Source: Trachythela sp. YZ-2020
Lineage: Eukaryota > Cnidaria > Anthozoa > Malacalcyonacea > Clavulariidae
Assembly: GCA_016169945.1 (NCBI GenBank)
Contig: JADLSH010000195.1
Location: 265,158-329,157 of the forward strand
Length of the DNA: 64,000 nucleotides
Direction of reading: 5' to 3'
Positions 644 to 50,104 of the stretch are shown one piece after another; within the stretch, counting starts at the first letter, position 1; each line of letters begins with the position of its first letter. Position numbers and translations under genes: made by a program. The notes beneath the pieces were generated by a model. The model did not search any database. It worked only from the letters and a program-made list of their open reading frames with translations, and had not been told where the DNA came from.

Positions 644-3600
644 TCAGGTTTGTACAACCGTCTCTTGTCCCAACAGGTTTCCTTCTAGCAGACAAATCTT
701 TCGTACATCTCTCTGATACACTCCGTTCGCCGTTCTAACAGTTACTCTGCGGACGATTCCTTCGGCATCTGGGAAGACTTCTTCTATAAGTGCCTTTGGC
801 CATCGACCTCGCTGAACGTCTGCGTCTATCATTAATACTAAATCTCCGACTCTAAAATTAGGTTTCTTTTCCAACCATTTCTGCGTTTCTTGTAAGGTCG
901 GTAGGTATTCCCTTATCCATCTTTCCCAGAACGTACTCGCTAGTGATTGGACGTGCTTCCATCTTGCTTTGTAGCTCTCCACCTTACCGCACTCTTTCGC
1001 CGATGTCGATGGATTCTGGCGCATTAGCAGTATATTGTTCGGTGTAAGCGCTTCCAGGTCTTGAGGGTCGCTCGAAACTGGTGTTATGGGTCGATCGTTC
1101 ATGATTTTCTCCACTTCTACCAAGAATGTTCGTAGACTTTCATCGTTGAGCTCCCGATTTCCGACTAATGATCGCAGAATCTTCTCGGTTGACCGTATCA
1201 GACGTTCCCAAACGCCGCCTTGATGGCTCGCACCTGGGGGATTAAATACCCATTCGATACCTCTGCGTGAGAGTGATCCCTGGATCTTTTCAAGGTTCCA
1301 CGATTTCAGGGCTTCGATAACTTCTGCTTCAGCACCTTTGAAGTTAGTGCCATTGTCGCTATATATAACACGAGGTGGTCCTCTTCGGCCAACGAAACGT
1401 AAGATCGCACTTATGAAACTGTCCGTCGACAAATCTTCAGCTACCTCGAGATGAACAGCTCTGTATCTCAAACACGTAAAGATGCATCCGAACCGTTTAG
1501 CTAATGTAGAGTTCTTCGATCTCGTCCTCGGACCTAATTTCACGTAAAGTGGCCCAAAATAATCAATGCCAACAGCTGCAAACGGGTACACTAAACCGTT
1601 TTCGTCTGACGACGTCCTCACGACTGGTAACGGCGCCATCACTTGCTCTCCAGCCTTCGCATTCTCTCTTCTACAGATCTGACACTTCTTGAGAACCCGT
1701 TTAACATAAGATACTCCATTTGTAATCCAGAAACGTTCTCTGGTTTTTGCCAACGTCTGGTGACTTCCAATGTGACCGTTGAGACCGTGATAGTGTAGTA
1801 TGATCAACTCGGACACGGTGTTGTCTTTCGGAAGGATAAATGGGTGCTTTGAATCGTGATCTAAGCTTGACAGATTCAATCGTCCTCCTAAACGTAACAG
1901 TCCGTCTTCACGAAAGGGTTTCAATCGTGCTAAACTGCCCTTTTTCATCCTCTCCAAATCTTCCGGAAACGATTCTTCTTGAACTCGTCTAATTATCTTT
2001 CTTTCGGCTTCCTCTAATTCTGCTACGGTTAGTGGCCGTATTTTCTTCGCGTCGCTTCGTGGTTGTTTCTCGGAATCTCGCGATTGCTCAGGTCTTCGTC
2101 TGCGAAACACTCTGATTAGCCACGCGACGACTCTTCGCAGTTTTTCCCACGAGGAAAACCGTCTTAACAACTGACTCCAAAACTCTTCTTCCACACTAGC
2201 TCCGCAAACAACGACCTTTTCTTTCTTTACTCCTTCGTCATTTTCGTCTAGACCTTCCGCGAGATGTCTTGGTTGAGCAGGCCACTCTTCTGTTGACTTC
2301 CAGAGGAACTCAGGACCGCGTTTCCAATGCTCTAGCTTGCTTGTCTCGGAGGCCCGAATTCCCCGCGATGCGTGGTCTGCCGGGTTTAACTCAGATTTCA
2401 CGTGCCGCCACTGCTCCGGTGTCGATTCTTGTCGAATTGCGGCCACTCGGTTTGCGACAAAGGTGGTGAATCGCCGTGTCTCGTTAGCGATGTACTTTAA
2501 GACAATCATGGAATCGGTCCAATAGGTGATTGTATCGATCTTAAGTCTTCCTTGCAGTTCTTTCACGATGGTTTTGTTGACGCGTGTAGCTAACGTTGCC
2601 GCTGTCAATTCCAATTTAGGGACGGTGACTGCTTTATTGAGCGGCTTCACTCTGGACTTTCCCATAACAAAGCTGACATGGAACTCTCCTTTCTCGTTTT
2701 TGAAGCGCAAATACGATACAGTTCCGTAACCGTGTTCTTGCGAGGCGTCAGCGAAATGATGTAGGTCTATCTGTTGAATTTGTCCAAATTTCATCGGTTT
2801 AAAGCACCTGGGTATCTCATATACGCGTAGGTTGGCCAAATCTTCTTTCCACCTCTTCCACCGCGTAGACAGTTCACAAGGCAGTTCACTGTTCCAATCC
2901 AATTTCAGGCGGCATAACTCTTGGTTAATTTCCCGAGCTGGTAACATAAGTGGGCTGGCGAATCCAAGAGGGTCGTAGATTGTCGCTATCGATGACAGCA
3001 CGCCTTTGCGATTATTTTGCTCTTTCTTGTCGTCTACGGCTAGTAAAATCGTATCCTTTTCGACATTCCAGTGGACTCCGAGCGCTCTATCTATGGGTAA
3101 GGCTTCTGATTGCAAATCTAAGTTTTTGACTGTCGGTGACCTCCCTTCGACAGGAAATTCTTGTAAGACTTCGCGTGAATTTGAGCACCATTTGGTCAGA
3201 TGGAATCCTCCCTTTGCCAGTATACTTTGCAACTCCTTGCTTACTTTCTTCGCTTCCTCAGGGTCGGAAAATGACTTTAGCAGGTCGTCCACGTAAAAAT
3301 CGCGAGTGACAGCGTCCAAAGTTTCTTGGGAATAATCCTGACCGTTGTCCACGGCTGTTCTTCTGAGAGCATAACCGGCGACACTTGGGGATGACTTAGC
3401 CCCAAATATATGGACAAGCATTTGGTGGGTTTTTGCCGCTTTCGACAGGTCGCCGTCCGGCCACCAGAGATAACATAGTGCGCCTTGGTGTTCGGGTATG
3501 ACTTGGACTTGATGGAACATCCTCTTCACGTCGGCAGTAACAGCTATGCTGTCTACTCTGAATCTCAATATCACGCCTAACAGTGTGCTGGTGTTTTCTG

Positions 3601-4816
3601 GACCTCTTAGTAGCTCGTCGTTCAACGAAACGCCTTGGGTTTTACACGCACAATCGAAAACGACTCTCGGTTCTTCGGGTTTTCTTGGGTGCCAAACCGC
3701 GTGGTGGGGTAGGTACCAAAGGGGTTTTAACTTGACGACCTCATCTTCCGGAACCTCTCGAGCTGCTCCTTCATCTACGTAGTTTTTCATCACTTTGCTG
3801 TACTTCTCGTGAAATTTGGGATTTCTATCCATCTTATCTTTAAGGTATTGTAATCTCTTCTTAGCTGTGGGTAGGTTGTCTGGAAGGTTAGGTGGATTGT
3901 GCTTGAAAGGGAGACCAATTTGGTAATGACCATCTACCAATGTCGTTGTTTCTATCATCATTTCCTTTGCAACTCGATCTTCAATTGACATACTTGCCTC
4001 CGAATCATCCTTGATATCATCAAATTCTGCGTTGAACAAACGTTCGAGTTTATAGTTCAAGACATTGCTCTCCGAGCTGGTGCAACTGACTGAAATGTGA
4101 TCGCTTTCGTCGTTTGCCATTGGGCCGTACACCGTCCATCCCAAGGGTGTTTTGACTGCGCAGGGTTCTCCTTTCCGCCCCTCTCGTCTATCTAGATAAC
4201 TGTCAATTAAATCGGGGCGATCGCTACCAATTAGTATTGTCACTTGTTTATCTCCCGTTTCAGGTAAAACTAAATCCTGTAAATGTGGCCATTCTTTGAG
4301 CTCCTCGTTTGTAGCTATGTGCCTTGGGGTTACTGGCAAACTGTCGGTTGTCAGAACATTCTTTAACTCGAATCTTTCGCCACCCGACACGGATCGTACG
4401 TTGAGCTTCACTTCGTAACCAGTCTTTTGTTGTTGACAATTGACTGTAGTCATCGTGTAATTAACTGGATTGACATCTTCTATCGAAAGCTCTTGGACCA
4501 GACTTTCCAAACAGAGGGTTGCGTCGGACCCACTATCCAAGAATGCGTAGGTGACAACTTCTTGCCTGTCAGGAACGCTTACTCTGACTGGGACAACTTT
4601 AAAACAGACACGGGGTCGACTAGCTTTGACGGCACAAACATTTACTACTGAATCGCCGTGAGGACTTTCCGTTGCATCGTTCTGTGTAACGCCACCTTTC
4701 TGTCCTTGGGTTTGCTCTTTAATTCGGTCGCCTTTGTCGTCATTCGTCCGATCGTCTTTCACAAAGTTCTGATCTCTATGGAGAAGATAGTGATGACCTT
4801 TCCCGCATCCACGCAT
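644..4816 (-). CDS. pol: BEL/Pao Pol polyprotein (protease, RT, RNase H, integrase)
   Basis: An uninterrupted 1390-residue frame. Domains in order: a cysteine/histidine patch at residues 4-13 that in BEL elements closes the Gag zinc region; an aspartic protease with DSG at 94-96; a reverse transcriptase with YVDD at 508-511; RNase H acidic residues near 690 and 768; a Pao-type linker; an integrase zinc site (H1010/H1015 and C1045/C1048); an integrase core with D1085, D1154 and E1204; and a C-terminal domain. All catalytic residues I can place are present. The methionine at 4816 is probably not the true start: the frame stays open upstream and should be fed from gag by a frameshift or as part of one polyprotein. 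It is expected to make cDNA in virus-like particles and integrate it. Confidence 0.95.
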   Translation of the reverse strand: MRGCGKGHHYLLHRDQNFVKDDRTNDDKGDRIKEQTQGQKGGVTQNDATESPHGDSVVNVCAVKASRPRVCFKVVPVRVSVPDRQEVVTYAFLDSGSDATLCLESLVQELSIEDVNPVNYTMTTVNCQQQKTGYEVKLNVRSVSGGERFELKNVLTTDSLPVTPRHIATNEELKEWPHLQDLVLPETGDKQVTILIGSDRPDLIDSYLDRREGRKGEPCAVKTPLGWTVYGPMANDESDHISVSCTSSESNVLNYKLERLFNAEFDDIKDDSEASMSIEDRVAKEMMIETTTLVDGHYQIGLPFKHNPPNLPDNLPTAKKRLQYLKDKMDRNPKFHEKYSKVMKNYVDEGAAREVPEDEVVKLKPLWYLPHHAVWHPRKPEEPRVVFDCACKTQGVSLNDELLRGPENTSTLLGVILRFRVDSIAVTADVKRMFHQVQVIPEHQGALCYLWWPDGDLSKAAKTHQMLVHIFGAKSSPSVAGYALRRTAVDNGQDYSQETLDAVTRDFYVDDLLKSFSDPEEAKKVSKELQSILAKGGFHLTKWCSNSREVLQEFPVEGRSPTVKNLDLQSEALPIDRALGVHWNVEKDTILLAVDDKKEQNNRKGVLSSIATIYDPLGFASPLMLPAREINQELCRLKLDWNSELPCELSTRWKRWKEDLANLRVYEIPRCFKPMKFGQIQQIDLHHFADASQEHGYGTVSYLRFKNEKGEFHVSFVMGKSRVKPLNKAVTVPKLELTAATLATRVNKTIVKELQGRLKIDTITYWTDSMIVLKYIANETRRFTTFVANRVAAIRQESTPEQWRHVKSELNPADHASRGIRASETSKLEHWKRGPEFLWKSTEEWPAQPRHLAEGLDENDEGVKKEKVVVCGASVEEEFWSQLLRRFSSWEKLRRVVAWLIRVFRRRRPEQSRDSEKQPRSDAKKIRPLTVAELEEAERKIIRRVQEESFPEDLERMKKGSLARLKPFREDGLLRLGGRLNLSSLDHDSKHPFILPKDNTVSELIILHYHGLNGHIGSHQTLAKTRERFWITNGVSYVKRVLKKCQICRRENAKAGEQVMAPLPVVRTSSDENGLVYPFAAVGIDYFGPLYVKLGPRTRSKNSTLAKRFGCIFTCLRYRAVHLEVAEDLSTDSFISAILRFVGRRGPPRVIYSDNGTNFKGAEAEVIEALKSWNLEKIQGSLSRRGIEWVFNPPGASHQGGVWERLIRSTEKILRSLVGNRELNDESLRTFLVEVEKIMNDRPITPVSSDPQDLEALTPNNILLMRQNPSTSAKECGKVESYKARWKHVQSLASTFWERWIREYLPTLQETQKWLEKKPNFRVGDLVLMIDADVQRGRWPKALIEEVFPDAEGIVRRVTVRTANGVYQRDVRKICLLEGNLLGQETVVQT

Positions 4817-5073
4817 ACGACAGGTGAACCCGCTTTACAGCACTTTGCAAAATGGCCTTCATCTAAGCATATCATACAAAGCCTGCGTTGCTTCACTATT
4901 TTCCAACGATCTTCCAAGCTTGCTGATTTGAACACTCGACATCTCCATACACCGTGTGGACCGGAACACTGCGGACATTTGCGAGGCAAACGATTCTCCC
5001 TTTCATCGTTTAAATCGTTCTTTGTGGCGCTGGAATAAATTGCTCTCGATTGATCCAATCTTTGCTTAGTCAC
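4759..5073 (-). pseudogene. gag: BEL/Pao Gag zinc-knuckle segment
   Basis: A 104-residue open segment with two cysteine clusters: CPQCSGPHGVWRC near residues 35-47 and CMICLDEGHFAKCC near 67-80, the nucleocapsid-like region that binds RNA. It overlaps the start of pol by about 58 bases in another frame. The natural continuation of the zinc region is in the pol frame, one base out of register around 4820-4830. This is either a programmed shift or a 1-base loss. Its upstream join to the previous gag segment near 5075-5100 is also out of frame. Confidence 0.8.
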
Positions 5074-8004: not shown

Positions 8005-8960
8005 TCAAACTCCCGCATCGCGGTCGTGCGATTTTTTAATCACACGTTTGATTTCAGCATACGTGAGGTGAGAATAAAAAATGAGGCCTAGGTCTTTAGC
8101 TGACAAGACAGGCTTGATGGTTTTTCCCAGCAAATTCAAACGCATGTCATTAGGAATAGTTCGCATAAGTTGCCTCGTGCCAATAAGAAGGAATTTTGTT
8201 TTCTCTGGGTTGACCAGCAAGTGATTCGCGGAACACCATTTTACGACCCTATTGAGATCAGACTCCAAATCGTTAATCGATTGCTCTAGGTCTTTGATGG
8301 AAAACGACAGGAAAACTTTAGAGGCATCCACATAGGAATCTAGGTCACAAGAATTAGTCGTTGATGGTAGATCATTTTTATAAATACAAAATAATAGGGG
8401 CGATAGAATTGCGCCTTGTGGTACCCCATGAGTAATAGGAAGGGAAGAGGACTTTGTTGATCCAATGCGTACAAATTGTGTTCTGCCAGAAAGGTAACTT
8501 TCAAACCATTTCGCTGTATGCCGAGAGGCACCATACACTGGATTGAATGGTTTACACTTTCAAATGCCTTGCATTGATCTAATAACACGAGAGCAGTCAG
8601 CATCGATTTGCCCCTGGCTTCCAGTATGTCATCCCTCACCATAATGTTGATGGTGGAGTGGTATTATTACCACTTTGGTGGGATGTCAGACGATTGTTCT
8701 TGGATAGGTAATCACTGAATTGATTAAGGACAACTCTTTCACAAACTTTAGAGACAACAGCCAGAAGTGAGAGGACGATTATTCGATGCGACTTCATGAT
8801 CACCTTCTTTTAGCAAAGTTATCACTTCTGCTAGTTTCCAGATATCAGGGAAAGTCGATGATGCAAGGGAGCAGTTTATTATTTCGGTGATAGGGGCTAA
8901 AATGACAGGAAGACAACCTTTAATCACTCGTGCGCTGATCTTATCGGGGCCAGGGGCCAT
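8005..8960 (-). pseudogene. LINE reverse transcriptase fragment (copy 1)
   Basis: Three overlapping open segments (8748-8960, 8340-8642, 8005-8538) encode parts of one LINE reverse transcriptase in different frames: GPDKISARVIK near the start of the domain, then the D-containing box, GVPQGAILSPLLF, and the region after the active site. The active-site motif reads YVDAS instead of YVDD or YADD, so a catalytic aspartate is lost. Endonuclease and 3' end are missing. CR1/L2-like clade is the likely source. The same damaged fragment is at 16886-17841, so it died before the duplication. Confidence 0.85.
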
Positions 8961-11078: not shown

Positions 11079-11607
11079 CGCATCTATATATATACATGAA
11101 CTTGTGGTTGACGCTTGGCACCTGGACTCTGTGGCTCGGTGGTCGGAGCGCTGCACCGGAATCGCAGGGCCGCAGATTCAATTCCTGTTGGGGGACTTGG
11201 AGTTGCATTTTTCGCAGCCGTTCCCGTTCAGGTCTAAAATATTGTATATAATATCTCACTCGAAATATCCATCCACTTAAACGTTCTATATCAATTTCAA
11301 TCGAGTGGGATGCAGAAAAAAAAATCTTGTAATTTACCTTATCACAACCCGCAGTATCCGCATCTATATATATACATGAACTTGTGGTTGACGCTTGGCA
11401 GTTGGACTCTGTGGCTCGGTGGTCGGAGCGCTGCACCGGAATCGCAGGGCCGCAGATTCAATTCCTGTCGGAGGACTTGGAGTTGCATTTTTCGCAGCCG
11501 TTCCCGTTCAGGTCTAAAATATTGTATATAATATCTCACTCGAAGTATCCATCCACTTAAACGTTCTATATCAATTTCAATCGAGTGAGATGCAGAAAAA
11601 TATATAT
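11079..11607 (+). repeat. Tandem dimer of a tRNA-derived SINE
   Basis: Two copies about 280 bp apart (near 11079 and 11359). Each has an A-box-like TGGCTCGGTGGTCGGAGC (11130 and 11410 regions) and a B-box-like GATTCAATTCC about 45 bases downstream, the internal RNA polymerase III promoter of a tRNA-like head. An unrelated tail of about 150 bp follows. The dimer lies exactly between the two copies of the segmental duplication. Confidence 0.75.
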
Positions 11608-11829
11608 TATACAGTACAAAGTGAAAGAGGCTGCTCTGTATTTCTTATATTTCCTTGGCGTTTTATATGGCTGTTAAGCAGTTTATATAATTCCTGCCAC
11701 CTTTGGCTCTATTCATGCGAATACGACAGAAATTGCTATGAAATAATTCTATTTTTTTAGCGAAACAATACACCTACGTGTTTATATAAATAGATGTGTT
11801 CTATAATATATATACTGAAAAGTGCTTAA

Positions 11830-12046
11830 AGGGACACTCCACCCCCAGAACAATTGCTGCTCATATAAAAGCCCTGTATGAGCCTACTTTGGAATGAATG
11901 TTCCTTCGTCTCAATTCTTTTTCGTTTGCGAGAAATTTAACTTTGTTTCACTGATTTCCTCGTACATTTTCGCCGCCATGTTTGTTGAATCGCGGGCGAA
12001 TGCGGTCGTTCCTATGAGTGCTGTGACGTAAGTGTGGGATAGCAAC
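11830..12046 (+). repeat. Left terminal inverted repeat of Kolobok element
   Basis: Pairs with 16322-16536 with only a handful of mismatches (for example CCTGTATG against CCTATATG). It contains an ATTTTCGCCGCCATGTTTG segment near 11965. The ballast-gene promoter probably lies between here and 12150. Confidence 0.9.
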
Positions 12047-12149
12047 AGCGACTCACTGCGCAAAACAACAAAACAAACGCTTCGTGATTGATTTCGGTCA
12101 TATAAATTCTGTTGTTGAACGTTTATTCTCCCTTTGATAATTTTTAATA

Positions 12150-12932
12150 ATGTCCCAATCGAGTACTAGCAGCTCTTCTGAAGTAGACGAAGATATAGGA
12201 CGATCTGAGCAGAACATAAAATTTGAAGCGGACGAAGCTAAGTTTTCTCTTCAGCCATATTTGTTCGAACCAACAATAAAGAAAGAATCTAGTACTAGCA
12301 GCGACAGTGAAGCTGAAGGGGATGAAGACTCGGATTCTTCAGCTGATGAAAGCCGGTTAGATAATTTAGAATGGTAAGTTTTGATTTGTGCGATAGAAAT
12401 ACAAATATTTCACTCGGTAGCTACTACGCGAACAATGTTAATATATTTGTCTGTCTTGTTGAAAATAATTGTTCCCTATTTATATAATATATAAAATATC
12501 CTCAGGTGTAAATGTGGTCATTGCCAAATCATGGATAGATCTGACGAATGTGTTTGCTGTCAGGAAATCCCTGAAATGTTATCGCTCAATGACGAAGCCA
12601 TGACCATTGAGAAATTAAAAGAGCCCTTGACTTGTGTCACTGATAATCCAGCCTTTGCTGCTGTGTGTTTGAATTTGTGGGTTCTCCGAACAGCATGGTA
12701 TCAGTACAAGCAGCAGTATAAGAACCCATTTGAAGGACCAGACCACCAAAGGAACAGGCATATTGCTTATCGGCAACTTGCACGATTAGGTTGGGGGGTT
12801 CTAGGAAGACATGTTCGAGTTGTCATGCCATCTTGCAGTGTTAGTTGTATCAGAGCACATTTCCCACCACCAGGGCCTGAGGACGAACACGTTTATGTAG
12901 GGTTTAGGCCAACATCTGATGAAGATGATTAA
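12150..12932 (+). CDS. P2X7-type ballast (ZCD) domain protein of Kolobok element, two exons
   Basis: Exon 1 is 12150-12373, the intron 12374-12505 (GTAAGT to CTCAG, 132 nt), exon 2 12506-12932. The spliced product is 216 residues. Residues 1-74 are acidic and Ser-rich (SSSSEVDEDIG; later DSEAEGDEDSDSS). The rest is the cysteine-rich intracellular domain of the P2X7 receptor: WCKCGHCQIM spans the splice junction, then ECVCC, and a late block with CIRAHFPPPG and YVGF. In P2X7 these cysteines hold a dinuclear zinc site. There are no membrane segments, so this is a free-standing cytosolic or nuclear form. It sits convergent to the transposase gene and is probably an accessory protein of the transposon; its role is unknown. 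Confidence 0.88.
12374..12505 (+). other. Intron of the ballast-domain gene
   Basis: Starts GTAAGTTTTG and ends ATCCTCAG, 132 nt. Splicing joins TG to G to restore the tryptophan of the WCKCG motif, which supports the prediction. Confidence 0.85.
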
Positions 12933-13165
12933 ATAGTAACAAAATGGGTCCTTTGCATAGCACTTAACTTGTACATATTATATGCTTAGTTTGTAGTTTG
13001 TACATTATTATCTTCCCCTATTTAACTTCCAGACGAAGGGCCTTCGCTCGAAACGTCGAAGTTCTTGTTGTATTTTTCAGGTAGTTCTACACAACAGTCA
13101 ACCGCTGTATATCTGCTACACTCTACCCACACTGGTACTGCACGTTTGAAATAAATACAGGTTTG
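12933..13165. other. Convergent intergenic region in Kolobok element
   Basis: 3' ends of the two Kolobok genes meet here. A plus-strand AATAAA lies near 13150 and would serve the ballast gene. A GGGCCTTCGCTCGAAACGTC segment (about 13039-13058) stands out as GC-rich. Confidence 0.5.
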
Positions 13166-16100
13166 TCACTTTGACTGAAATCTGCTTATGTGAGCGTTGA
13201 TAGCCGTTTCCTTGTCTGGTTTTTCTTTTGTTGCAATATTTTTTGCATACTTGGTAGACTTTTTGGCTTTCTTTGATTTCTTAGATTTCTTTGATTTTTT
13301 ATACTCGGGGATATTTTCCATCAACGTAGTAATATAATCAAAGTTTTTGGCCTCCTTAATTGATTTTACAATCCATGTTTTGCGAACCTTTGGGAAAACC
13401 AGATTATATCGTAGATTGCCCACTGTGGAACCTTTCTTGACCACAGCTTGCTTCCTGGAGGAATTGTGATTATTGTCAAGGACAGCAAGCTGTGTTCTAG
13501 CAACCATTCCTTCATGGCTAAAGTGCTGCCTCTTGGGACAGTACTTTAGCATCATGGAATGATAAACTTCAAGGTTCCCGGTATGGTGGAACTCCGTGGC
13601 CAGCTTTAAATCCTTGAGCAGCTTTTTGTTGAACACAATTTCCTCCAGCGCAACAAGAGCAGCAGTACCAGGTTTCAGCCAAGGCTTTTCTTTCTTCTCC
13701 CGTCGGGTTAATTTGTGATGAGCACATTTCTTGAAGTGCTTAGCACCTCTCCATGAATGCTTATTGCTAATATGATTTACAATTGATGTCCATTTCTCAA
13801 TAAGTAACTCATAGTTCCCATCAGAAGTTGCAACACTCCACCAGAAATGAGCAGAAACAGACCGAATCCATTCTGTTAAATCCTGGAACTCCTTCTTTTT
13901 GCTTTTCTTCGATAATTTCTTAACCACCCATTTTGAAAGATGCCAGACATCATATTGGTGTGTAATTTCAGAATGTTTTTTTCTCATTTCTGCAGTGATT
14001 GTTGTATGCCTGTCCGTAGTCAAGCATCTCACTTTAACCCTCTTACTTTTCAAATTTTTGAGTACCCGGTTGCATCCTTCAGCCTCCATAGCATTGGATG
14101 ATGAAACCTCTGTGACTTGGACAACTTCAAAATCAAGTATTTTGCTGCCGTTTTCTTCCATAACAGTGTAGGTGCCATATTTGGCACAGTGCCCTGGGCT
14201 GTCAGACCGTCCATCCCCACAAACGTCTAACTTACTTGATTTTTTCATTTCCTTCAGCAGATTAACTTGGTGGTCTTTCCAAGCCTTGTCAACTACAGGA
14301 AAAAGAACCTCCTTCTGCATCTCATAAAATGTACTTTTACCAATAAAAGCCAAATTCAAGTACTGGGCCAAAGAGTTTACATTTTGGAATGTATTCCCAC
14401 TAAACAATATTGACCCAGCAAGCAACAAATTGCCTGCTATCTTCTCACCAATCATAGGTTGTGACCGCCATTTGTTCTGATGTCCATCAACACATACTGT
14501 TTCAACAACCACCATGCTACCAATACATTTTTTAGACTGCTCAGCTATTGGCTTTGCACAGGTGGAACAAGTGACAAATAGCTGGTCCAGATTTTCTTCA
14601 AATACCACAAATTTTTGCTGTTGTACTGGACTTTTTGGTGATTCTGAATCACTTTCATTCTCGGTTTCTGTTTGGCTTTCAGCAGAAGGCATATATAGAT
14701 CATCATGATCTGTATCTGTATCAGTAACTGTGCATGTATATTCTGAACAAATACTTTTCTGAGGTGATATATTTTCAGGTAGTACAATATTGTCTGGAAA
14801 AGTTCTAGGAGAATGGGTGCTTTCCTTCAAGGAAGGTGCATCTATATACATAGCTTCTTGATCAGATTGTGCAATATCATTTAGACCAAGATCATCATCA
14901 TGAACAGTGGTTGGTACATAAGCTAATTGATTTTCTGTTTGGTTGGTTACAAGAACAGGTGTATGTATATCAAGTGGTTGCATTTCAGTTTGGGTGGCAA
15001 TATATTTTGTCATCGGCTTGAAACTTTGAATGTGATCGACCAACAGTTCACATTGGATGCCAATTTCTTTGTTCACTGTCATGCCATCAATAGGATATTG
15101 GGTTTCAGATACATGACTAATAACTTCTAAATCATTATTTGAAATTGTGCATGGTTGACATTCAGTTTCAGTAACTTCATTGGCTGGAAATAATTGATGT
15201 TCATGGCCAATTGCTGGATGGGGGGGTTTTGATGAGCTCTCTATTTGGGCTGGATCCCCTCCCAATGTTGCGACTCCGTGCATGCTAATACAGCCTTCGA
15301 CCATCTTAAACAAAATAGATATGCAGTGTCTAAATACAGTGCAGGGTGTGAATTTATAACGGGGGGCTCTACATTAATACACAAGTTTTTGGTTTTCCTA
15401 TACTGGGTGATTTTCCGTATTACTAACCCGAAGTAGGACCAAGATGATGGTTGCATTTACAGCTTGTAACTGTTACGTGTAAACTGACCCGAAATCGCTC
15501 ACAACTTGTTTTTATCACCAGCCCACCTCAGTGACAAGCTATGGACTAAGACACTTTGCATGAGGGCTGGTAAGTACTTATGCAGTAGCTAGAATCATGT
15601 AGATAGGGCCCTAGACGCTGGTCCAAATCACAATTTTCCTAGCCCCAATGCCAAATGTACTATATATAAAACACTGTAACCGGTTAGACTCGTATAAACA
15701 TCCCAATATGAAATCAATAAAAATATACACATGTACAACATAAACATCATTGAAGTGTTTATAATGCTTTATTTCTATACTTTTACGTACAAATGTCTAG
15801 AAAGTTAATTCTGCTACAATATGAAAACTACAACATAATTGACATACAGTGTACAACTTTTTAATATACAGCTTGCTTAATACCTCTTGTCTGGCTTGTT
15901 CAGAGCGGATTTGATTTCTTCTTCGCCCTGTGGTTCTTGGTTTCTCTGGCTTAGTCCGCGTAAATATAGATGGCACCGCATCTGGTTTTAGCTTAGCCCT
16001 TTGTCGGTAGCCAGGCACAAGATCTAGCGTCGTTTCGAAGCAGTCAGGTGTAAAATGCGCCGAGCAAACACATGAATTATTTAAATCGCGTGGGTTTACT

Positions 16101-16219
16101 CTGCGGATTTTCGCCAACCACGCTTGTCGCAAACTTTTTTCCTTTGGAACTCTGTGGTAGCTGATTCCCACAGTTTTCCGTGAGTAGTTTGTACACTCTG
16201 GAACCATGCAATGAGGCAT
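13166..16219 (-). CDS. THAP-domain Kolobok transposase, two exons
   Basis: Exon 1 is 16219-15884 (112 codons, phase 0), the intron 15883-15305 (GTATTAAG to TTTAAG), exon 2 15304-13166 (712 codons, phase 0). The product is 824 residues. Exon 1 encodes a THAP zinc finger: C5 and C10 in MPHCMVPEC, a tryptophan near 34, and C-x2-H in CVCSAHF, for sequence-specific DNA binding. Exon 2 has an acidic linker, a cysteine pair CSTC, then a DDE-type core with DVCGDGRSDSPGH, TTDRH, HQYDVWH and a conserved NLEVYH where the last acidic residue probably lies. A Lys-rich tail (KKSKKSKKSKKAKK) is a likely nuclear signal. The open frame of exon 2 alone extends three codons upstream of the acceptor, which is not its start. 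Confidence 0.88.
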
Positions 16220-16321
16220 CTCCAGTTGAAAAATATTTAAAAGAAAACTAAAAAGCTTTTATAAGATTGACTATGCAAATACTCGAAGCAATCTGATATG
16301 ATATTATGATTATGCAAGTTG

Positions 16322-16536
16322 TGCTGTCCCACACTTACGTCACAGCACTCATAGGAACGACCGCATTCGCCCGCGATTCTACAAACATGGCGGCGAAAAG
16401 ATACGAGGCAATCAATGAAACAAAGTTAAATTTCTCGCAAACTAAAACGAATTGAGACGAAGGAACATTCATTCCAAAGTAGGCTCATATAGGGCTTTTA
16501 TATGAGCAGCAATTGTTCTGGGGGTGGAGTGTCCCT
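16322..16536 (-). repeat. Right terminal inverted repeat of Kolobok element
   Basis: Inverse of 11830-12046. The right TTAA target copy is 16537-16540. The transposase promoter should lie between this repeat and the ATG at 16219. Confidence 0.9.
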
Positions 16537-16885
16537 TTAACTGCCGCTATTAACAGTCGCTGACAACTTGAATCCGCGCTAATTTTGAATTCTTTGAAGG
16601 CATATTGTAAACACTGGACTGGACTGAACTTTGGACTTTCAATTTTGTTATTTGTTCTTGTAATTTTGTTATTTGTTCTTGTAATTTTTCCAATGTCTTT
16701 TAATAATCTTTGTGAAGAATTTTGCCATTTTTGCAATGTGGATAAATTCAAAATTGAATGAAAGTTTAGCTTGTTCGCTTGTAGCTACGCTACAGTATTT
16801 CGGCTACTATGTGATTTCGGGGAGCATCGCGTGTACCAATGGTGTAAACAATTACTCGCTTCCTGTTTACAAAACGTTTTAAATT

Positions 16886-17841
16886 TCAAACTCCCGCATC
16901 GCGGTCGTGCGATTTTGTAATCACACGTTTGATTTCAGCATACGTGAGGTGAGAATAAAAAATGAGGCCTAGGTCTTTAGCTGACAAGACAGGCTTGATG
17001 GTTTTTCCAAGCAAATTCAAACGCATGTCATTAGGAAGAGTTCGCATAAGTTGCCTCGTGCCAATAAGAAGGAATTTTGTTTTCTCTGGGTTGACCAGCA
17101 AGTGATTCGCGGAACACCATTTTACGACCCTATTGAGATCAGACTCCAAATCGTTAATCGATTGCTCTAGGTCTTTGATGGAAAACGACAGGAAAACTTT
17201 AGAGGCGTCCACATAGGAATCTAGGTCACAAGAATTAGTCGTTGATGGTAGATCATTTTTATAAATACAAAATAATAGGGGCGATAGAATTGCGCCTTGT
17301 GGTACCCCATGAGTAATAGGAAGGGAAGAGGACTTTTTTGATCCAATGCGTACAAATTGTGTTCTGCCAGAAAGGTAACTTTCAAACCATTTCGCTGTAT
17401 GCCGAGAGGCACCATACACTGGATTGAATGGTTTACACTTTCAAATGCCTTGCATTGATCTAATAACACGAGAGCAGTCAGCATCGATTTGCCCATGGCT
17501 TCCAGTATGTCATCGCTCACCATAATGTTGATGGTGGAGTGGTATTATTACCACTTTGATGGGATGTCAGACGATTGTTCTTGGATAGGTAATCACTGAA
17601 TTGATTAAGGACAACTCTTTCACAAACTTTAGAGACAACAGCCAGAAGTGAGAGGACGATTATTCGATGCGACTTCATGATCACCTTCTTTTAGCAAAGT
17701 TATCACTTCTGCTAGGTTCCAGATATCAGGGAAAGTCGATGATGCAAGGGAGCAGTTTATTATTTCGGTGATAGGGGCTAAAATGACAGGAAGACAACCT
17801 TTAATCACTCGTGCGCTGATCTTATCGGGGCCAGGGGCCAT
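16886..17841 (-). pseudogene. LINE reverse transcriptase fragment (copy 2)
   Basis: Paralogue of 8005-8960 with the same frameshifts and the same YVDAS active-site defect. A few replacements separate the two (IGSTKS against IGSKKS, RTIPND against RTLPND). Not functional. Confidence 0.85.
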
Positions 17842-45357: not shown

Positions 45358-45699
45358 GTTCAAATACTCTGGGAGATTATAATGGAAAACCTGACATGCG
45401 TAGAGGAGGACTGAACGAATACACGAAATATAAAACTTGATAACATCCTCTGGAGGTACGTAATTGGCACGCTTCAATTGCAACAGAAAGTAAAGTCTTT
45501 TAGAAGCTTTCTTAATTTTAAAGTGGAAGTCAAGTCCGTTCTGCGCATCTGTTCTGCGCATTGTTTACATCCTTTGTTTTGATACACTATAACTGTCTTA
45601 CATGACGCCTTTTGCCTCTTGTTGTTCTCACCTGGATTTTAATGACTTTGTGTGTGGTCCTTTTACAATACTTACAGTATTTTTTTACCTGCTTCGTTC

Positions 45700-47312
45700 A
45701 TGGGAAGTAAAACGAAATGCAACATTTCCTCGCTAAACACAAAAAAGCCATGCCGCATTATACAACAATGGACGAAAGTCGAAGCACAGTATATAGATGA
45801 AATCGAGGACATTGCACAAGTTCCCAATGTGGATATAAACATGGCAGTATGTTCATGTCATGGAATGTGTTTGCGGGAAAAGGGAAGAAATGCTTGTCCT
45901 TGTAAAGAAAAGGGCAGTATTGCTCTTCCGTTTGCCACCCAGACAGAAGTTCGTGTTTGAATCGACGGAATCTACAAGAAAGCGACACCAATTCATTCGA
46001 AACATCTGAAAGTGTCAAATAATGTGAAACGCAGGTACGTATTAAAATGTAAAAAATGTAAGTGTTGCCGAATTTTAGTTGTTAAAAATATTTATATGTA
46101 ATATCTAATAATTGCAGGGTGCAGAACATGATAGTAGTGACGAGATGGATAGCTCAGAACCAAGTGCAAAGCGAGCGAGAGGTCGTTTGCACGCGGTCAA
46201 AGAAAAACTGGCAAAACATCTTCTTGCAACTGTGGAAATGCGACAGAAACAACCAGGGGACGTGGTGGGTCTACTGACCCACGAGCAGCATCTGCAGGTA
46301 GCATATATTTAAAATCATCCATTTGTTTCCCTAATTTAGTAGCTACAGTTTATAAATTGGCAATGTATCTGTACTTGTACATGTGATTAATTTCAATAGA
46401 TGCATATATGTGTTGAAGATAACATAGTATTTTGTTGAGATGGCACTTTTAATAGTTGTATATCATTTTTCCACTACAGTATATAGTTTTGTTTCAAGTG
46501 ATTGTGTCTACTCACTGTGTAAACACACTCTATACCCACTGATCAAATTGATGGTGTACTGACGATTCCCAGTCTGTACATGTATTTTAATGTTTATAGG
46601 GTATGTTGGTGTTCACATCCCTGATTCAATGGTGTGTCAAACTAAAGACTTTTTGCACATCAACAAGTTACATACTATTTCCCCTTTGCTTCAGCTAACT
46701 TGGCAAAGTTGAAGCTACTAAGGCTCCCATTGTGAGACACCAATGGCTATGGTGAGTTAAAGTTAAACTGAAAAAGTATAATTATGTATTTTTGCTAGAA
46801 TTTGGTTGAAAGCATAAATTTGGAGGCTTTGAGAAGGTTGGAACTGGAATTGTTGCGAAGACAGCCAGCAATGTATTCTGACTTGGTGAATTACCGATAA
46901 ATTTGCCACAAGGTCAGGATGAATCATCCCAACCAGACCCTCCATCAGACAAAAGTCCTGAATGGTGTTTTTGTGGCCATTAGCACCAATGCCCACCCAA
47001 GATGAAAACAAACGTTGTTCAAAAGGAGTTATGCCTTGTGTGACAACAAACGCTTTGTTCAACCTGCTTGTCCTGGATGCAAATGTTTTGGACATTGCAA
47101 TGAAGTATAGAGAGGACATTCTAGTTATGGAACACCCCAGAAACAATGAACACTTTAGGCATTCTGCAGATAGACAGTTTGTTCTAGGGCAGCATGGGCG
47201 TTTGGGCAGGGGCAACAGAGTAGTAGTGCCAAGTTGTTGTGTTTTTGCAATAAGAGCAAGGTATCCTTCTCCCAATGGAGTTTATACAGGTTTCCGGCCA
47301 GCTAGACTTTAG
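45700..47312 (+). pseudogene. P2X7-type ballast domain gene with N-terminal cysteine cluster, broken
   Basis: Exon 1 (ATG near 45700 to about 46035, donor CGCAG/GTACGT) encodes MGSKTKCN.., an acidic stretch, and a cysteine cluster CSCHGMCLREKG..CPC; a shift near 45913 is needed to reach the next CSSVCHPD. Exon 2 (46118-46296, TTGCAG to CTGCAG/GTAGC) is DSSDEMDSSE.. followed by a basic helix (GRLHAVKEKLAKHLL). Exon 3 (about 46924-47312) is the ballast domain: PEWCFCGH, a second shift at about 46982, MPTQDENKRC, VMPC, then VVVPSCCVFAIRARYP and VYTGFRP to the stop. Two frameshifts make it nonfunctional as read. It is a different lineage from the gene at 12150-12932. Confidence 0.8.
46300..46920. 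other. Intron-like spacer of the broken ballast gene
   Basis: No open frame of interest. AT-rich. It starts with a GTAGCATAT donor-like sequence and should be an intron between exon 2 and the ballast exon. Confidence 0.5.
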
Positions 47313-47676
47313 TGCTATTGGCAATACACAATAAATGACTTGTATAATGTATTTAGTAAATTCTGGTTCAACGATTTCTTTTTGTTAAAGACAGATTCAT
47401 ATAGATTTTAATTATTACATATAATATATTTACACATAAAAAATTATCAGTTCATTTAGCTATTTGGAACAAATTTGTTTGTATAATTAGATTAGATTAT
47501 AAAAAGCTACATATGCAATCATTCAAATTTTCAAAAGCATACAAAACATACATTTTTGCAACTCTTTCCCCCTCACAAAGCATACATTTAAATGTTGATC
47601 CTCTGCTGTGAAAATTATAGGTTGTTGAATAGTGCTTGACTTTTTACAATTGCAAAACCTCTTCAATGAAATTTAA

Positions 47677-47781
47677 CCCATTAGCTGGCAATGTACCCAG
47701 ATATGCCATACTTTAGTACTTTATTCTGTCTAATGCCAGACGATTTGACTTGCCAGTGCTAGGGTACTGCCAGTTAAAGGG
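47677..47781. mobile_element. Tiny MITE flanked by TTAA, second copy
   Basis: TTAA at 47673-47676 and 47782-47785. Inner ends CCCATTAGCTGGCA and TGCCAGTTAAAGGG. Same family as 29384-29488. Confidence 0.65.
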
Positions 47782-47820
47782 TTAACAAAACTATCTGCCA
47801 GACTGAGTGAGTGTCTCTTG

Positions 47821-48235
47821 TTAACCCATTAGCTGGCAATGCACCCAGGTACGCCCTACTTTAGTATTTTATTCTGTCTAACACCATACAATTTTACTTG
47901 CCAGCAGGGGTGGATCCAGCTTGGTTTGATAAGGGAGTGCTAAGTGGGCTTTGGTCATGAAGCAGGGAGTGACCTTCGACCAGGGAAGGGTGAATCACCA
48001 TTGAGGGCAGGATCAAGGGGGTTATCTTGTCAGAAAATGTTTAAAAAATAAGATGGCCTACATGATCAAAAAGGCCCATGAATTACCTGATATTATATTG
48101 ATAAATGCCCTGTCACATATGGGAATTGGCACCCCCCCTCTTGCCCAAGGCTAGGAGAAGTGTGCACCCCCCCCCCCCCCAGTAAATCCATGTAATCCTG
48201 CTTGTCAGTGCGAGGATACTGCCAGTTAATGAATG
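47821..48235. repeat. Third TTAA MITE, split by an insertion
   Basis: Left part 47821-47908 (TTAACCCATTAGCTGGCA..), right part from about 48198 (CTTGTCAGTGCGAGG..CTGCCAGTTAA). Between them is about 290 bp starting CAGGGGTGGATCCAGC, hAT-like, and a C16 run at 48165-48180. Confidence 0.5.
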
Positions 48236-48239
48236 ATAA

Positions 48240-48917
48240 TAACCCACATTTTCTCTTACAAATTTTGAATGGAGTAAATAGTCCATCAACCCCCCTCCCC
48301 CTCCCACTTTCTCTCGCTTTGGTTACTTTTTAAAATGTTGAAACAGTGTGGATAATCCCTAATTTATTGATTATCTGACCATACATCAAGAACCCCAGAA
48401 TCTGTACAGCACCATAATGCACTAGTCAATTGAAAACCCACCACCACCCACAGGCATATGTGGGGTTTTAACATGATTTTGCAGGGGGGAAATAGAGAGT
48501 TTTAATAAGCGTTGCTATTCTGCTATCCGGGGTTTTAACACGACACAAACGCTAGGCTCAAAGGCTGGGAATTAACTCTTGCATAGCCTGATATTTAATG
48601 TACGACTTTCTTCTGCGTCAGCTTCCAGTAACTTACAGCACATTTTGATATTAATAATGGTTGATCAGAACACTAGATGGAAAGCTAGACTTTGGAAAGC
48701 TGGGTAATTTAACAAATGGACAAAAGTTTAGGCTGGGATTGTTAAAATATCCCTGCATATTCTCGTGGGGTCAGGGTTTCAATTGACTAGTGCACATAGA
48801 AGACAGAAATGTATCAATATGACAATATATCGTTTGATCACTTTGATGGAGCCAACTGGTTGTCAAGACATTATGTAAAACCATAAATCAGTTTGTAAAT
48901 CTTGATTGATGTCTTAC
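48240..48917. other. Gene-less part of second Kolobok-like element
   Basis: C-rich tracts at 48290-48305, otherwise plain sequence. Further exons of the minus-strand gene may lie here, but I cannot identify any. Confidence 0.4.
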
Positions 48918-49395
48918 CAACAGCTCTTCCTTTTAAGGTTTGGGCTCTAGCTATAGAGCAATATTGGTTGCAATCTTTGCAATCCTTCATGGGATCAGCT
49001 GCTGCAAGTTTCAACTTCTGGCCGTTCTGGGTTTCCGCGTCACTACAAAATTATAAGCAGATACTGTAGATCTCTATCAAAACACTGCTTTTATCCATTA
49101 TTACATTATTCGTTAAACTACAATCTATATTTCTTACCTGGTTGTTAGGAGTTGCTTCGTGTTTGAAATATAATTGTCACGAAGCAAGGCTACTATTTGT
49201 TTGTCCGTCTTGACTTTTATCTCGTCTTTTAACTGTCGCCATCGCATAAATTGCTCCTGATAAAGACATATCTTTGTCGCATCCCTTCCCGCTAAATATT
49301 TTTTCGTTTGGCCTTTTTATCTTCGTTGGATACAACACTAATTCCCTCAATTTCGCCGCTAACAACATTTCGGAATGGCTTTCGCCTTCCTCCAT
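48918..49395 (-). CDS. Two exons of an unknown minus-strand gene in the second Kolobok-like element
   Basis: Exon A 49395-49138 starts MEEGESHSEMLLAAKLREL and ends at ACCAG/GTAAGA. Exon B 49042-48918 lies between TTTTGTAG and GTTG/GTAAGA, 125 nt, and reads a basic helix followed by CKDCNQYC. Exon A changes frame about 49210-49180, so the long frame ends at 49177 while the second frame (KTDKQIVALLRDNYISN) fits exon B. The position matches the THAP exon of the first element, and a DNA-binding role is conceivable, but I recognise no domain. Partial and probably damaged. Confidence 0.45.
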
Positions 49396-50104
49396 GTTGT
49401 TTTCTTAATACATAATCACATGCGAAATACACGAAATGCGCATGCGTTATTCAATTAAAATTCCAATGGTGAGGGCCCTCACATAATGCGCAGAAAAGAT
49501 GCGCAGAACGGACTTGACTTCCCCTTTAATATTAATATGAGCATTCCATTTAAATATTTTTGAATTGTTACACCAAGAAGTTTAAGAGAATCGACTGTCT
49601 CGATAATGTTTGTATCGATACGCAGTTTTTCATATTGGGTATAGTTGGTGTTGAAAATGAAATCCTCATCTCCTTGCACTTTTTAGGGTGGAGTTGAAAT
49701 TTATTATCATGCGACCACACCACTACCTCGTACACAAGCGACTGGACGGTACTATGCAAACCCTTCGGGATAATTGGTGTCATCAACGTACTTAACTGTG
49801 CCATTAGATAACGCAATCTGAAGATCTTCAATCATAATTAAAAATAACCACGGGCCGAGTTTTATTACTTGCGGAACACCAGCCTGTACTGATCTCCATT
49901 CTGAGTAACAATTCTCTGCTGACTTGACTCTTTGGGATCTATTACTTAAAAAGTCGCAGATCCAGTTCACGATATGAGGATTAACACCGTAATTTGACAG
50001 TTTGGAAATGAGAATGTTATGGTCTATTAGGTCAAAAGCTTTTTGTAATCAAATACCAGTACGCTCACATCGCTACCAGTGTTGTCAGTGGCCTTTGACA
50101 AGTT

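Follow-up and report, generated by a model that had tools for sequence, protein, structure and literature searches.

A P2X7-type ballast gene carried beside the transposase in Kolobok transposons of Trachythela

Introduction

Why is a protein domain that forms the tail of the receptor P2X7 encoded between the ends of a DNA transposon? The question is raised by a 64,000-nucleotide stretch of the genome of the cnidarian Trachythela sp. YZ-2020 (the window; positions 265158-329157 of contig JADLSH010000195.1, in a 578-Mb assembly), where a complete DNA transposon, here element 1, lies at 11830-16536 between two copies of TTAA. The original prediction from this sequence placed inside the transposon a two-exon gene with an acidic N-terminus and a P2X7-type domain, and the exon coordinates, the terminal inverted repeats (TIRs) and a Pfam search all agree with it. 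On the combined grounds of anatomy, sequence and predicted fold, the gene is almost certainly KolX, an accessory gene of an autonomous-looking Kolobok cut-and-paste transposon of the Kol0 type. Our overall explanation, in which we have high confidence as a whole, starts from this identity and from the movement of KolX with the transposase gene as part of the element; in it KolX would be a trans-acting cofactor, and the tail of P2X7 would come from the side of a second ballast subtype, type B.

The protein itself has been described before. According to the accessible text of Kojima and Bao (2022, PMC9587614), KolX is the product of Kolobok elements of the Kol0 lineage, has the cytoplasmic ballast fold and matches human P2X7 476-595; P2X7 originated when a P2X4-like gene was fused with KolX, and Nanor is likely another domesticated KolX. 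The ballast domain was described across Metazoa by Rump et al. (2020, PMC7016195, as far as its text was accessible), and the main text of that paper does not contain the word stem "transpos". In the literature searched, the word KolX was found only in PMC9587614, and the searches on Kolobok/P2X7 and nanor/P2X7 returned, beyond these two papers, only a general review that names Kolobok and P2X7 once each. Because PMC9587614 already holds both KolX and the P2X7 fusion, the core of our finding is a rediscovery; what it provides is independent confirmation, from a complete transposon whose frames are open, that the domain of the P2X7 tail is an accessory protein of transposons. To this we add the three KolX-bearing Kolobok families, the family of a second element in the window and the comparison of two ballast subtypes with P2X7.

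Results and Discussion

The ballast gene of element 1

The two exons of KolX together encode 216 codons and a stop, and their phase-2 join creates a tryptophan codon (TG|G). It had been claimed that splicing restores this tryptophan before CxC, and the claim was checked on 120 of the 148 passing relatives of the 216-aa product. Thirteen have W before CxC, and 12 of these also carry the PYxFEP motif of exon 1. Another 46 have R at this position and none of them has PYxFEP, as expected if the open frame runs on across the acceptor; the remaining 61 show neither pattern. The splice is therefore backed by homologs with W before CxC, mostly together with PYxFEP.

As predicted, the 216-residue product matched the P2X7 C-terminal profile (Pfam P2RX7_C, E 4.2e-15, 56.6 bits against a cut-off of 23.5), and its predicted fold matched P2X7 chains, from residue 476 onward, far above the others among the matches listed. 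KolX and the P2X7 ballast have in common the fold, the CxC...CC...C cysteine pattern and the RH and IR motifs (rat R546-H547 and R578 in our mapping). Unlike P2X7, KolX has no P2X channel part. By the same mapping three of the five rat GDP-contact positions are kept (546, 547 and 578) and two are replaced, with V and P at R574 and K583, so that the full set (R546 H547 R574 R578 K583) is not present. These residues are partly missing in other animals too, according to the accessible text of Rump et al. (PMC7016195).

The Kolobok transposon around it

The two ends of element 1, TIR and TTAA together (11826-12044 and 16322-16540), differ at 9 of 219 columns. Both begin with AGGG, which gives the termini AG...CT and agrees with the 5'-RR...YY-3' ends that serve as a criterion of the Kolobok superfamily in the accessible text of PMC9587614 and PMC6004289. 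TTAA is found at both ends of the window element, at 14 of the 14 ends found in its family (family 1, window included) and at 17 of 18 in family 2.

KolX is convergent to the transposase, as had been predicted, since the 735-aa and THAP frames of the latter are both on the minus strand and KolX is on the plus strand. Joining of the two transposase frames by splicing is plausible because the relatives P0177 and P0185 have THAP and transposase within one frame. The THAP frame contains AVPSIF, corresponding to the AVPTIF-like box of the superfamily. In an alignment of transposases (A4) D141, D208, D229 and H232 are invariant and E356 nearly so, in agreement with the DDD/E and C/DxxH pattern; the assignment of the putative triad among these residues is our own. 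Between DxxH and the last E lies a zinc finger with nearly invariant H288, H293, C304 and H306, which are candidate zinc ligands. An RNase H-like fold was predicted for the transposase, and its C-terminal tail is rich in lysine (KKSKKSKKSKKAKK).

In these respects element 1 resembles known systems. With the Kol0 KolX described in the accessible text of PMC9587614 it shares a second protein beside the DDE transposase, the TTAA target, RR ends, the ballast fold and the match to P2X7 that starts near residue 476; no differences were found in this comparison, which was made with the description rather than with a Kol0 reference sequence. The Xenopus Kolobok transposases (PMC6004289, accessible text) likewise have TTAA, AG ends, a THAP domain with an AVPTIF-like box and DDE, but "KolX", "ORF2" and "accessory" do not occur in the main text of that paper. 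Nanor and the other ZCD proteins are similar to KolX in being short, with a variable N-terminus and a C-terminal ballast domain, but are treated as host genes in the accessible text of PMC7016195. In the legend of its figure 6, two markers of ancestral ballast-gene synteny could be further genes of the same transposons.

KolX in three Kolobok families

A DNA search with KolX gave 34 matches in 29 loci (locus L028 is a 74-bp match, at the blast level only), and a transposase match lies within 7 kb at 25 of the 29. The transposase search gave 71 matches in at least 47 loci; locus counts are lower bounds because 62 of 1074 candidates were scored. Family 1 has at least 10 transposase loci, 9 of them with KolX, and among the more distant loci (at least 37) 16 have a KolX match at the DNA level. 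Two loci without such a match, L039 and L040, proved on fetching to carry KolX convergent to the transposase within a third family with other TIRs (ends AGGGGAACTCCAGCCCC); this KolX is about 73% identical to P0020 and had been missed by the DNA search. KolX is therefore found beside the transposase in three Kolobok families of this genome, two of which share the phase-2 intron and the conserved domain. These repeated copies at different sites show that KolX travels with the THAP/DDE transposase gene inside the element.

The gene is intact in 7 of the 10 fetched family 2 loci, and in 2 (the window and C105) of the 6 family 1 copies compared over the whole gene, the other 4 being broken. Between families 1 and 2 the KolX proteins are 48% identical over 211 codons, and in the domain dN is 0.34-0.35 with dS saturated (3.0-4.3). 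Conservation of KolX extends to named relatives in two phyla (Cnidaria and Nemertea). Its repetition with the transposase and its conservation between families bear out the earlier proposal of a transposon accessory gene.

Several observations weigh against this reading. No KolX DNA match was found at 22 transposase loci, of which three were fetched, and one of these (L038) has no KolX, the transposase there being truncated too. In the L017 copy, whose 735-aa transposase frame is still open (98% identical), KolX lacks its middle part. Among the near-identical copies of family 2 there is no clear synonymous excess, as expected if copies decay after insertion. A phmmer search with the single KolX product found no match in PDB at E 0.01, Foldseek with the KolX model gave none at E 0.001 or better, and mostly helical models may get middling Z through a common arrangement. 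It had been proposed that copies lacking the gene would count against an accessory role; some copies are indeed damaged or deleted, yet KolX shows conservation from one family to another and is not limited to the window copy.

What KolX may do

We think it somewhat more likely than not that KolX plays a positive role in transposition. The spliced 216-aa protein would be a transposition cofactor acting in trans, in which the ballast domain, predicted to be zinc-stabilised, could serve as a small oligomerisation or docking module, while the acidic N-terminus might make contact with the lysine-rich tail at the C-terminus of the transposase, or with chromatin. That this N-terminus docks on the tail by charge is a speculative and rather unlikely detail.

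The loss of the middle of KolX in L017, where the transposase frame is open, indicates that KolX is unneeded in cis. Conversely, part of the transposase is missing from the C105 copy (L002/L009), where KolX is preserved. Such independent loss of two convergent genes fits a diffusible factor acting in trans. It would also fit the main rival explanation, in which KolX represses or titrates the transposase and so controls copy number. The conservation of KolX in three families and in relatives from Cnidaria and Nemertea is no less compatible with a helper, and we consider a regulator of this kind unlikely. The window copy and the others in the genome are concrete material for testing the function of KolX.

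Two ballast subtypes and the tail of P2X7

The ballast gene of the second TTAA-flanked element of the window, element 2, belongs to a separate subtype, type B, while that of element 1 is type A. An N-terminal cysteine cluster is present in the full-length type-B relatives P0271 and P0280 (octocorals) and P0325 (hemichordate); the two octocoral proteins also have an RG-rich part, which looks as if it might bind nucleic acid.

P2X7 is much closer to type B. A type-B profile (from 24 of 87 hits) scored 91-94 bits against P2X7, compared with 19-26 bits for the type-A profile. Conversely, the human P2X7 domain scored against 87 of 87 type-B proteins with a median of 82.4 and a best of 93.0 bits; its best score against type A, where 117 of the 120 listed were reported, was 34.7 bits. 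An unrooted tree, whose bootstrap is unsettled, was built from 46 rows (21 of 120 type A, 19 of 87 type B, the window and family 2 copies, element 2 and three P2X7); in it type A was separated from a group of type B and P2X7 at 100/100 support. The branch leading to P2X7 is long (3.36), and P2X7 is so far grouped with type B as a whole rather than at a given fork. The type-B profile found no relative among 69 pattern stretches from viral contigs and 39 from prokaryote genomes.

Because the human P2X7 tail is far nearer type B, its donor is not best modelled by the element 1 gene. The proposal that P2X7 gained its tail from such an element is already in print in the accessible text of PMC9587614, and for an element like this one it needs amendment. 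If the direction we infer is right, the tail would come from a KolX relative on the type-B side and not from the type-A branch. Tentatively, and with confidence somewhat short of even, we suggest that the ballast genes of Kolobok-type elements fall into two subtypes that separated long ago and that the P2X7 tail, a zinc/guanine-nucleotide module, derived from type B, whose relic in this genome was mass-copied by a non-autonomous family. The ballast fold would then have begun as a nucleic-acid or transpososome module, and the type-B architecture (cysteine cluster, RG-rich part, ballast) is a basis for testing its original function. No subtypes of KolX are made in the accessible text of PMC9587614, nor does that of PMC7016195 contain the A/B split, which may therefore be new; if it holds, the donor of the P2X7 tail should be sought in another branch.

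Another possibility is that the domain was born in a host and captured by Kolobok once or more, in which case P2X7 did not receive it from a transposon. Similarity alone gives no direction, and the midpoint root of our tree is for drawing only. However, both ballast subtypes sit in TTAA elements in the copies read, and a transposon source is argued by Kojima and Bao in the accessible text of PMC9587614; we find a host origin improbable, slightly more so than the regulator discussed above. Chance trapping of a host ballast gene between the TIRs of one copy, conceivable because many animals have ballast genes annotated as belonging to the host (PMC7016195, accessible text), can be dismissed, since repeated copies rule it out and KolX again lies convergent to the transposase in each of three families, whose TIRs differ.

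The second element and its type-B relic

An element carrying the same domain was predicted at 45522-49525 and is located there, but its ballast gene is broken and of the other subtype, and the window copy showed no intact transposase. Judged by its sequence, its family is a non-autonomous, Kolobok-like one: the window copy and L037 have TTAA and AG ends, and element 2 has AGGGGAAGTCA in common with family 2. A DNA search gave 41 matches in at least 40 places (40 of 133 candidates scored), and loci L029-L037 belong to this high-copy family.

The ballast domain is recognizable in the relic (P2RX7_C on 46962-47312, 78.6 bits). Its frame is broken between CFCGH and MPTQ in 8 of the 8 loci read, the window copy being one, and the L037 gene is likewise broken. 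Element 2 was accordingly rejected as a second working case; the claim that it carries the domain independently is not borne out in detail, the gene being a relic copied within a non-autonomous family.

The minus strand may retain traces of a transposase. The last 30 residues of 56 of 121 transposases match at 48894-49001, compared with at most 10 in 60 shuffles. The match is weak, since the best single E (0.002) was outdone by shuffles (0.0005), and 18 queries, related to one another, reached E <=0.05 compared with 15 in one shuffle; in L037 no such C-terminal relic was found at E 1e-3. At 49137-49404 the frames MEEGESHSEMLLAAKLREL... and FMRWRQLKDEIKVKTDKQIVALL are also present in L037, and may represent the N-terminus of the transposase that was lost. 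Pfam searches of the N-terminal and minus-strand pieces of element 2 gave nothing above the cut-off.

Features and surroundings of the elements

Table 1. Positions of features of the two transposons in the window.
Feature	Position	Strand	Details
Element 1: left TTAA target-site duplication	11826..11829	.	
Element 1: left TIR, first letters AGGGACACTCC	11830..12044	+	215 bp
KolX exon 1, acidic N-terminus, PYLFEP motif	12150..12373	+	
KolX phase-2 intron, GTAAGT...CTCAG	12374..12505	+	
KolX exon 2, P2X7-type ballast domain, type A	12506..12932	+	Pfam P2RX7_C; predicted fold
Transposase main exon, 735-aa open frame, DDE core, basic C-terminal tail	13166..15373	-	
THAP-domain open frame, taken as transposase N-terminal exon (inferred splice)	15797..16258	-	Pfam THAP E 1.4e-19
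Element 1: right TIR	16322..16536	-	215 bp
Element 1: right TTAA target-site duplication	16537..16540	.	
Element 2, TTAA-flanked, non-autonomous, ends AGTGGAAGTC / AGGGGAAGTC	45522..49525	+	
Type-B ballast relic, N-terminal cysteine cluster	45772..46046	+	tblastn P0271 E 5e-12, P0280 5e-11, P0325 4e-6
Type-B ballast relic, helical part and ballast domain, broken frame	46799..47312	+	
Possible C-terminal relic of Kolobok-like transposase	48894..49001	-	suggestive only

Element 1 is flanked by near-identical minus-strand frames at 8005-8663 and 16886-17544, which we label reverse-transcriptase-like. Immediately to its left, at 11095-11600, a sequence of about 250 bp occurs twice in tandem and contains a tRNA-like stretch; it is perhaps a short interspersed element (SINE). 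Further left, a 1396-aa open frame on the minus strand (644-4834) resembles what we take to be a retroelement polyprotein.
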